Shown piece by piece: positions 58,770 through 61,095 of a stretch of DNA of 64,000 bases. Position numbers and translations under genes: made by a program. Source of the DNA: Candidatus Methanoperedens sp. (GTDB lineage Archaea; Halobacteriota; Methanosarcinia; Methanosarcinales; Methanoperedenaceae); the NCBI GenBank assembly GCA_027460525.1, contig JAPZAS010000034.1:1-64000 (forward strand), read 5' to 3'. The first letter of the stretch is position 1. Each line of letters starts with the position of its first letter. The notes beneath the pieces are model-generated. The model worked only from the letters and a program-made list of their open reading frames with translations. It was not told the origin of the DNA and did not search any database.

Positions 58770-59405
58770 ATGGATAATGCCTCAAACCAATGTATCGAAA
58801 TATTCAAGCGAAATAAAAGTACCATTATTGTATCTGATAATAGTGTGGAAATTCAAAGAGGAGGCAAATCCGTTAACTCTGATAGCCTGATCAATGGATA
58901 CGTCTATCTGGTAATTGACTGTTCAGGAAGCATGGCTGGCGAAAAAATTGAGCAGGCCAAAAGAGGAGCAATTGACTTCTCAAAAAGTGCTCAAAACAAA
59001 GGATACTCAAGTGGATTGATAACCTTTGCTGATCATGCCAAATATCATATAGAACCGCAACGTGATTATAAAGCATTAATACCTATAATTAATAATATTT
59101 CAATTGATGGTAGCACTAATATGACTGCAGGTATCCGGTTAGCTATAGATAAACTCAGAGGGACACAAGGATTTAGAGTTATGGTTATTGTTACTGATGG
59201 CATACCTAATAATGCAAGAGAAACATTATCCATAGCACAAGAAGCTAAGAATCAAGGAATTGATATTATCGCCATTGGGACAGATGATGCCGACCAAAAA
59301 TTCCTAAAGGAATTAGCTTCGAGAAAAGATTTAGGCATTAAAGTGACTAAAGAACATTTCGAAACCGGTATATCCTCTGCAGCACTTATGCTGCCTGGCA
59401 AATAA
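58770..59405 (+). CDS. von Willebrand factor A domain protein
   Basis: 211 aa, almost entirely one vWA domain. MIDAS residues: YLVIDCSGSMAGEKIEQAKR (DxSxS), the threonine in DGSTNMTAGIRLAI, and the aspartate in VIVTDGIPNNARE. No signal peptide, so it is cytoplasmic. With the following J/SUMF1 gene it forms the cassette between the inverted repeats. vWA proteins pair with FGE/SUMF1 proteins in several signalling and conflict systems. Confidence 0.85.
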   Translation: MDNASNQCIEIFKRNKSTIIVSDNSVEIQRGGKSVNSDSLINGYVYLVIDCSGSMAGEKIEQAKRGAIDFSKSAQNKGYSSGLITFADHAKYHIEPQRDYKALIPIINNISIDGSTNMTAGIRLAIDKLRGTQGFRVMVIVTDGIPNNARETLSIAQEAKNQGIDIIAIGTDDADQKFLKELASRKDLGIKVTKEHFETGISSAALMLPGK

Positions 59406-59454: not shown

Positions 59455-61029
59455 ATGCCCGTTCCACCTTGGTTACGAAAATGGGAAGACTATTATCAAA
59501 TACTTGGAATAGACGACCCGACGGTGAGTGATGAAGATATAAAGAAATCTCATAATTACAAAAGCTTCACACTATCCCCCGATTTAAATAAAGGCAAGCC
59601 GAAATGGGTCCTGGATCAAAATGTGGAAGACCTGAAAAAGGTCAATATTGCTTACGAATGGCTCAGTGACCCCCAAAAGCGCCGAGAGTATGATAAGGAA
59701 TGGTTTGAGAGACATAATAACAGTACAAGCACCAATCCGCCAAAATCTTCCGCGTTTCCCAAACCGGTCGTTACCCCTGAGCATATCCGATTTGATAATG
59801 TAGGTCCTGGTAATATCAAGGTGGCCTCGTTTACTATTCAGAATATCGGTGGCCCTTATTCAAAGATTTGGTTCAGCACTCCAAAGTCGTGGATGAAAGT
59901 CGTTCGCTGGTATTCAACATCTGTATCAGATGAACTTCCATTAAAAGTTGAACTCGAAGCAGTTGGAACAGACTGGGGGAAAACCTATACCGAGTATATT
60001 ACAGTCAAACTAGATGAAGAGGAGACTAAAGTCAAAATAGAGCTTATTACCAAGCCACTATCCAGTAATATATCTAATTCTAAGCCTAATGAAGGAACAT
60101 GGTGGAAAGGCTTCTTTGTTGTGGCGCTGGTGCTGCTGATTGTATTGTTGCTGGGATACCTTTGGCTTGCGCCGGGTGCAACCAAAGCGCTTGGAACCAC
60201 GAAATCCACACCAGCACCTAAAGCAACTGCAAGTGTAACTCAGACTTCCAAGGTTACTCATACAGTTTCTCCAGCACTCGCATCTACGCCAGCCCTATAT
60301 CAGAGTACTTTCACCAACTCCATCGGCATGGAATTCGTGCTTATACCAGCAGGCGAATTTGATATGGGCTCTCCAGAAAGTGAAAAAGACAGAGATGGTA
60401 ATGAAGGTCCTGTCCATCATGTAAAAATATCAAAGGCTTTCTACATGGGCAAATATGAGGTTACTCAGAAGCAATGGCGCGAAGTTATGGGAAATGATCC
60501 CTCTAATTTCAAAGGTGACAACCTGCCTGTTGAAAGCGTATCATGGAACGATGTTCAAGAATTCATCAAAAAGCTAAACGAGAAAGAGGGCACGAACAGG
60601 TACCGTCTTCCCTCAGAGGCAGAATGGGAATATGCGGGGCGTGCAGGCACAACTACAAGATATTCCTTCGGCGATGATGAATCAAAGCTCGGCGAATATG
60701 CATGGTACGCTATGAACTCTGGGAGCAGAACTCATGAAGTCGGTCAGAGAAAGTCCAATCCATGGGGATTATACGACATGCACGGCAATGTCTGGGAATG
60801 GGTGCAGGATATATACCACAATAGCTACAACGGCGCACCTACTGATGGAAGTGCATGGGAAGGAGATGGCTCCGACCGGGTCCTTCGGGGCGGTTGCTGG
60901 TACGACCTCGCCAGCTACCTTCGCTCTGCGCATCGCGGCGGTCTCGTCCCTGACGACCTCCACCGCGGCGGCCTCGCCCTTGGCGGCCGCTACGGTGACG
61001 TTGGCTTTCGCCTTCTGAGGAATCCGTAG
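59455..61029 (+). CDS. J-domain-like, transmembrane, SUMF1/FGE-domain protein with variable C-terminus
   Basis: 524 aa. Residues 10-85 form a J-like domain (DYYQILGIDDPTVSDEDIKK, IAYEWLSDPQKRREYDKEWF) in which the HPD motif is SPD, so it should not activate DnaK. Residues 100-205 are a beta domain. One helix (FFVVALVLLIVLLLGYLWLA) and a Thr/Ser-rich linker follow, then from residue 285 a formylglycine-generating-enzyme/C-lectin fold (FVLIPAGEFDMGSPE, RLPSEAEWEYAGRAG, YDMHGNVWEWVQD, RVLRGGCW...GFRLLRNP). The final 45 residues bear signs of targeted diversification (see 60881-61020). Confidence 0.85.
   Translation: MPVPPWLRKWEDYYQILGIDDPTVSDEDIKKSHNYKSFTLSPDLNKGKPKWVLDQNVEDLKKVNIAYEWLSDPQKRREYDKEWFERHNNSTSTNPPKSSAFPKPVVTPEHIRFDNVGPGNIKVASFTIQNIGGPYSKIWFSTPKSWMKVVRWYSTSVSDELPLKVELEAVGTDWGKTYTEYITVKLDEEETKVKIELITKPLSSNISNSKPNEGTWWKGFFVVALVLLIVLLLGYLWLAPGATKALGTTKSTPAPKATASVTQTSKVTHTVSPALASTPALYQSTFTNSIGMEFVLIPAGEFDMGSPESEKDRDGNEGPVHHVKISKAFYMGKYEVTQKQWREVMGNDPSNFKGDNLPVESVSWNDVQEFIKKLNEKEGTNRYRLPSEAEWEYAGRAGTTTRYSFGDDESKLGEYAWYAMNSGSRTHEVGQRKSNPWGLYDMHGNVWEWVQDIYHNSYNGAPTDGSAWEGDGSDRVLRGGCWYDLASYLRSAHRGGLVPDDLHRGGLALGGRYGDVGFRLLRNP
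60881..61020 (+). other. Putative DGR variable region
   Basis: In the 40 codons after RGGCW (60901-61020) only 11 of 120 bases are A, and 37 codons end in C or T (TAC, GAC, CTC, GCC, GGC, CGC). This is what adenine mutagenesis of AAC/AAT codons leaves. The position, at the C-terminal ligand face of a C-lectin/FGE fold ending in GFR, is the standard place of DGR variable regions. The family's usual RGGSW is RGGCW here (AGC to TGC, an A change). Template and reverse transcriptase are not in the window. Confidence 0.55.
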
Positions 61030-61068
61030 CTACTTTCCACTTTACAACTTTACCACTTATCACTCGGA

Positions 61069-61095
61069 GGCTGTGCGCAGCGAGGCCTCACAGCC
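61069..61095. other. Hairpin just downstream of the variable region
   Basis: GGCTGTG (61069-61075) and CACAGCC (61089-61095) form a 7-bp stem with a 13-nt GC-rich loop, 39 nt after the stop. DGR targets often carry such a hairpin shortly after the variable region; it could equally be a terminator. Confidence 0.45.

Follow-up and report, generated by a model that had tools for sequence, protein, structure and literature searches.

A variable region of the diversity-generating retroelement type, probably a relic, at the end of a DnaJ–FGE gene in Candidatus Methanoperedens

Diversity-generating retroelements (DGRs) are systems that rewrite binding proteins at adenines, and TvpA of Treponema denticola is a bacterial protein with a DGR of its own. 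In Nanoarchaeota, partial DGRs have been described that comprise a variable-region (VR) target and cis elements, with evidence of adenine mutagenesis and no adjoining reverse transcriptase (RT); for these RT-less targets both a fossil state and remote action were left open (Paul et al. 2015, PMC4372165). Conflict systems associated with DGRs, in which vWA/FGE proteins act as sensors, have also been reported (Kaur et al. 2020, PMC7159879), among others from multicellular bacteria (PMC10907252), and we found no DGR report for Methanoperedens in the openly licensed papers searched. Here, we describe a VR in a gene of a Candidatus Methanoperedens sp. (assembly GCA_027460525.1, contig JAPZAS010000034.1); ‘the window’ denotes the whole 64,000-nucleotide stretch that was analysed, and the features discussed are listed in Table 1.

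Table 1. Features of the target locus, and of the complete DGRs in two relatives (G023 and G119)
Feature	Position	Strand	Remarks
Von Willebrand A (VWA) domain protein, upstream neighbour	58770..59405	+	Pfam VWA, 1.4e-20
DGR target gene	59455..61029	+	524 aa; DnaJ domain, transmembrane stretch, FGE-sulfatase/C-lectin domain
Variable region (VR)	60867..61019	+	153 nt (relatives' 123 nt + 30 nt); TR/VR match
In-frame tandem duplication of 30 nt in VR	60931..60990 (60931-60960 / 60961-60990)	+	Self-comparison
Conserved 3' flank (GTAGCTACTTTCCACTTTAC..CTTTACCACTTA)	61020..61061	+	Similar sequence behind relatives' VRs
Hairpin GGCTGTG...CACAGCC	61069..61095	+	3' of VR; counterparts in relatives
G023 template repeat	L060 8439-8561		Follows RT
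G119 DGR	L295 3433-7781	reverse complement	HRDC-like protein, Avd-like protein, RT, template

The target protein, the product of the only FGE-sulfatase gene in its genome, carries a DnaJ domain at residues 12-80 (Pfam, E 3.6e-12) and an FGE-sulfatase (SUMF1)/C-lectin domain at residues 284-524 or thereabouts (Pfam, E 1.8e-47), together with a transmembrane stretch read off the sequence. The FGE/C-lectin fold claimed in a preliminary description of this DNA is confirmed by the Pfam match, by an AlphaFold model of the domain (pLDDT 93) and by its best PDB matches, PvdO and TvpA, the variable protein of the Treponema DGR; the VR occupies the C-terminus of this fold, as in DGR variable proteins. 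The cysteine of the CRSA motif is aligned with a leucine (YLRSA), which leaves RGGCW, within the VR itself, as the sole source of a cysteine in the C-terminal part; the target does not have the active-site cysteine pair that a catalytic formylglycine-generating enzyme such as human FGE carries near its C-terminus. The VWA gene lies directly 5' of the target on the same strand, and its product is a possible functional partner. Rfam gave no match, and PADLOC assigned the target to no defence family.

Complete DGRs are found in two relatives. In a second Ca. Methanoperedens genome of the same genus (G023), contig C290 (L060) bears an FGE/SUMF1 homologue of the target and, next to it, the other parts of a complete DGR, in the order FGE target, HRDC-domain protein, Avd, RT and template repeat (TR); the Avd scores 103.8 bits against NF033474 (cut-off 80), the RT matches phrog_1423 (E 1.4e-115), and the VR is mismatched to its own TR at 27 of 32 adenines but at 0 of 91 other bases. 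The HRDC-domain gene sitting between target and Avd (L060 6437-6952) has a counterpart in the other cassette, and is a possible second accessory protein of these DGRs. That other cassette, on contig C68 of a 100% complete genome from a different genus of the same order (G119), has a similar layout and an RT 68% identical to that of G023, with the roles of its HRDC and Avd proteins assigned by where they lie and by their resemblance to those of G023; here VR and template are mismatched at 17 adenines and, at the very 3' end, at 2 further bases. We found a DGR RT in 1 of the family's 34 genomes and in 2 of the order's 186. Group II intron-like enzymes and other RTs in the genus share only about 30% with the DGR RT, and were discounted as candidates for that reason.

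When one 30-nt unit is removed, the window VR aligns without gaps to the TRs and VRs of both relatives. Against the G023 template it differs at 23 of 32 adenine sites and at 5 of 50 other first and second codon positions (third positions: 14/41), with a Fisher p of about 1e-8; against that of G119 it differs at 26-28 of 37 adenine sites and 2-3 of 45 other first and second positions (p about 1e-10 to 1e-11), the ranges reflecting the choice of where the 30 nt are removed. Comparing the rest of the target with the G023 gene provides a control, in which 26/157 adenines and 44/311 other first and second positions differ (17% vs 14%), such that the bias is confined to the VR. The window VR thus differs from a template at that template's adenines, the templates in question being those of relatives, and in the paralogous VRs of three further genomes (G006, G024 and G030) most differences fall in those same adenine columns. 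This adenine-specific mismatch to two related templates, taken with the within-gene control, strongly supports a VR of DGR type, as had been claimed; plain codon bias, considered as a cause of the tail's composition, is excluded by the same adenine-column test.

The composition itself stood up exactly as first counted: of the 120 bases that follow RGGCW, 11 are A, and 37 of the 40 codons have C or T as their third base, set against medians of 38 A and 21 such codons over all 40-codon segments of the target gene, which had been described as A-rich in its other parts. Both values are reached only by segments starting at 60880-60901, among 16,377 taken from every open frame of the window that is 150 codons or longer. 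The serine-to-cysteine change in RGGSW, attributed previously to a change of an A, is confirmed as A-to-T at a TR adenine; the templates of both relatives read GGT-AGC-TGG, and the window GGT-TGC-TGG.

Counterparts of the conserved 3' flank lie directly behind the VR copies of six genomes (G006, G010, G011, G023, G024 and G030), and it probably belongs to the homing (IMH) neighbourhood. A hairpin 39 nt past the stop codon, cited earlier as a matching DGR feature, does exist and has counterparts at the same position behind the relatives' VRs (GGCTGGC...GCCAGCC), which would make it part of a candidate IMH-type 3' end; its stability, however, is that of shuffled sequence (z -0.29), whereas those of G023 and G024 are strong (z -4.3 and -6.2, respectively).

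Within the VR, the two units of the tandem duplication are identical at 23 of 30 bases (P 0.0004 vs codon shuffles) and have 9 of 11 adenine-site outcomes in common (P 0.0007 if independent); the duplication therefore probably postdates diversification, having arisen in an already diversified VR. Six of the 7 differences between the units are transitions, with no excess at adenine sites, and the second copy is modelled by AlphaFold as a low-confidence loop.

The host genome is a 2.44 Mb archaeal MAG in 37 contigs, with an estimated completeness of 99.5%. It yielded no RT (PF00078 and homolog searches), no Avd (NF033474), and no template, whether searched for with the G023 template or with VR-built patterns allowing A for every C, G and T; plain BLAST likewise found neither a template nor a second VR copy. 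The absence of RT and template first noted for the window thus holds, and extends to the whole assembled genome; the genome-wide search for both that had been proposed as a check came back empty. Neither a matching RT nor a matching TR segment was found in 2.9 million viral contigs (IMG/VR), where FGE relatives are at most 62% identical, and phage records match the DGR RT at no more than 42% identity among the matches listed. The RT of the Methanosarcinales virus vir525, considered as a source, was rejected as not close enough (37.7% identity).

FGE genes with a VR are widely distributed in the genus, occurring in many Methanoperedens bins, and are much more widespread than the machinery. Their N-termini are modular, with a protein kinase and three FGE domains joined in one case (L072), a NosD/S-layer arrangement in another (L071), and N-termini that match no assigned family besides. 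Two FGE tails in G030 (L197 on C159, and L198 on C148) have VRs broken by TGA stops and are decaying targets; in this genome PF00078 matched only RT fragments.

Synthesising these findings, we put the probability that the target is a relic, in which the machinery has been lost and the VR fixed in its last state, at roughly 0.64. We suggest that the gene is a target of a Methanosarcinales DGR lineage with a cassette of target, HRDC protein, Avd, RT and template, in which adenine-mutagenic homing rewrote the C-terminal lectin-fold VR and gave random residues at AAC-type codons on a putative ligand-binding face. RT, Avd and template would since have disappeared through loss, as opposed to simply being missing from the data, and the VR would later have gained and kept the 30-nt duplication that has now diverged, leaving a formerly diversified membrane sensor or binding protein ‘frozen’ in its last state, with diversification presumably at an end. 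The relic reading is favoured because homing from a duplication-free template would be expected to erase the duplication, which has instead diverged, and because the hairpin is weak here and strong in G023 and G024. Against it, a MAG in 37 contigs could miss a cassette of ~3 kb, or one that is extrachromosomal, and the argument from the duplication concerns 30 nt and assumes a template that does not itself carry it.

The preliminary description had the target diversified from a distance; its VR stands, but remote action is unproven and, given the missing RT, Avd and TR and the diverged duplication, a relic is more likely. We nevertheless regard as the strongest of the alternatives, if an unlikely one, that a DGR of the same archaeon still acts on the VR in trans from a replicon that escaped assembly or binning, such as a plasmid, a Borg-like element or a virus. 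In favour of this, the window ORF is intact, and the many bins with VR-bearing FGE genes set against the single RT-bearing genome of the family point the same way. In G024, moreover, two VRs whose flanks differ at 2/140 positions differ from one another at 23 of 32 adenine sites and at 5 of 91 other positions, a change that looks recent from the sequences, and no DGR RT was detected in that bin (99% complete); a bin can thus lack machinery that has acted recently, which suggests that such machinery can be missed in bins of this kind. Paralogous VRs of G006 also show adenine-targeted change with no DGR RT detected. On the other side stand the empty search of viral contigs, the two known cassettes, which adjoin their targets among chromosomal-looking genes, and the diverged duplication and weak hairpin, which suggest no recent homing. 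A broader and somewhat more doubtful version would have a mobile extrachromosomal DGR diversifying chromosomal FGE-type sensors in trans across many Methanoperedens species, with chromosomes carrying only targets.

It is very improbable, by our estimate, that the diversified 3' end (VR, flank and hairpin) was recombined in from a VR gene of a DGR-positive relative, into a lineage that never had the machinery, although exchange of this kind has some precedent in the modular N-termini and in G024, where two paralogs (C31 vs C46b; L064 4497-4687 and L077 3061-3251) show 0/60 differences in the 3' flank and 156/658 (24%) in upstream coding sequence, which suggests that a 3' module was exchanged between targets. 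Standalone VR-plus-flank fragments, with no other part of the FGE gene, also occur in G024 (L196 5754-5876 and 6822-6944, on C20) and G011 (L202 326-448, on C13); these look like VR copies and not templates, because they are diversified at adenine columns, and could be debris or donor cassettes. No donor for the window VR was identified, and the present data do not separate such an import from the relic reading.

An equally improbable account, that an ordinary FGE-like gene simply ends in a GC-rich stretch with biased codon use, diverged through normal evolution or diversifying selection, can point to the many FGE-family proteins that have no DGR and to the lack of an RT in the genome, but is in effect refuted (with each of two templates, p is about 1e-8 or below), since ordinary selection has no cause to track template-repeat adenines while leaving neighbouring first and second positions nearly fixed and the upstream gene free of the bias.

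DGR-diversified lectin-fold proteins are hereby placed in Methanoperedens, a major anaerobic methane oxidiser, and the relic-or-remote question raised for Nanoarchaeota in 2015 becomes directly testable in Methanoperedens enrichment cultures.

Of the known systems, those of G023 and G119 are like the window in their homologous FGE target, in a VR register that is the same bar one 30-nt unit (by which the window VR is the longer) and in the adenine-specific mismatch of the window VR to their templates, with 3' flank and hairpin position also common to G023; they are unlike it in that the HRDC protein, Avd, RT and TR adjoin their targets, whereas the genome of the window yielded no RT, Avd or TR. 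The partial DGRs of Nanoarchaeota differ in having complete DGRs elsewhere in the same genomes, where the window assembly has no detected RT (PMC4372165), and the window target is set apart from them by an FGE fold homologous to the cassette targets of its relatives. TvpA (PDB 2y3c) has the same FGE-type C-lectin fold (TM-score 0.83, normalised to the query; 32% identity) but no DnaJ domain. Likewise, the DGR-associated conflict systems of bacteria are distinguished by the DnaJ fusion of the window target, while sharing with it the use of an FGE/CLec domain as the variable sensor and a vWA protein nearby.
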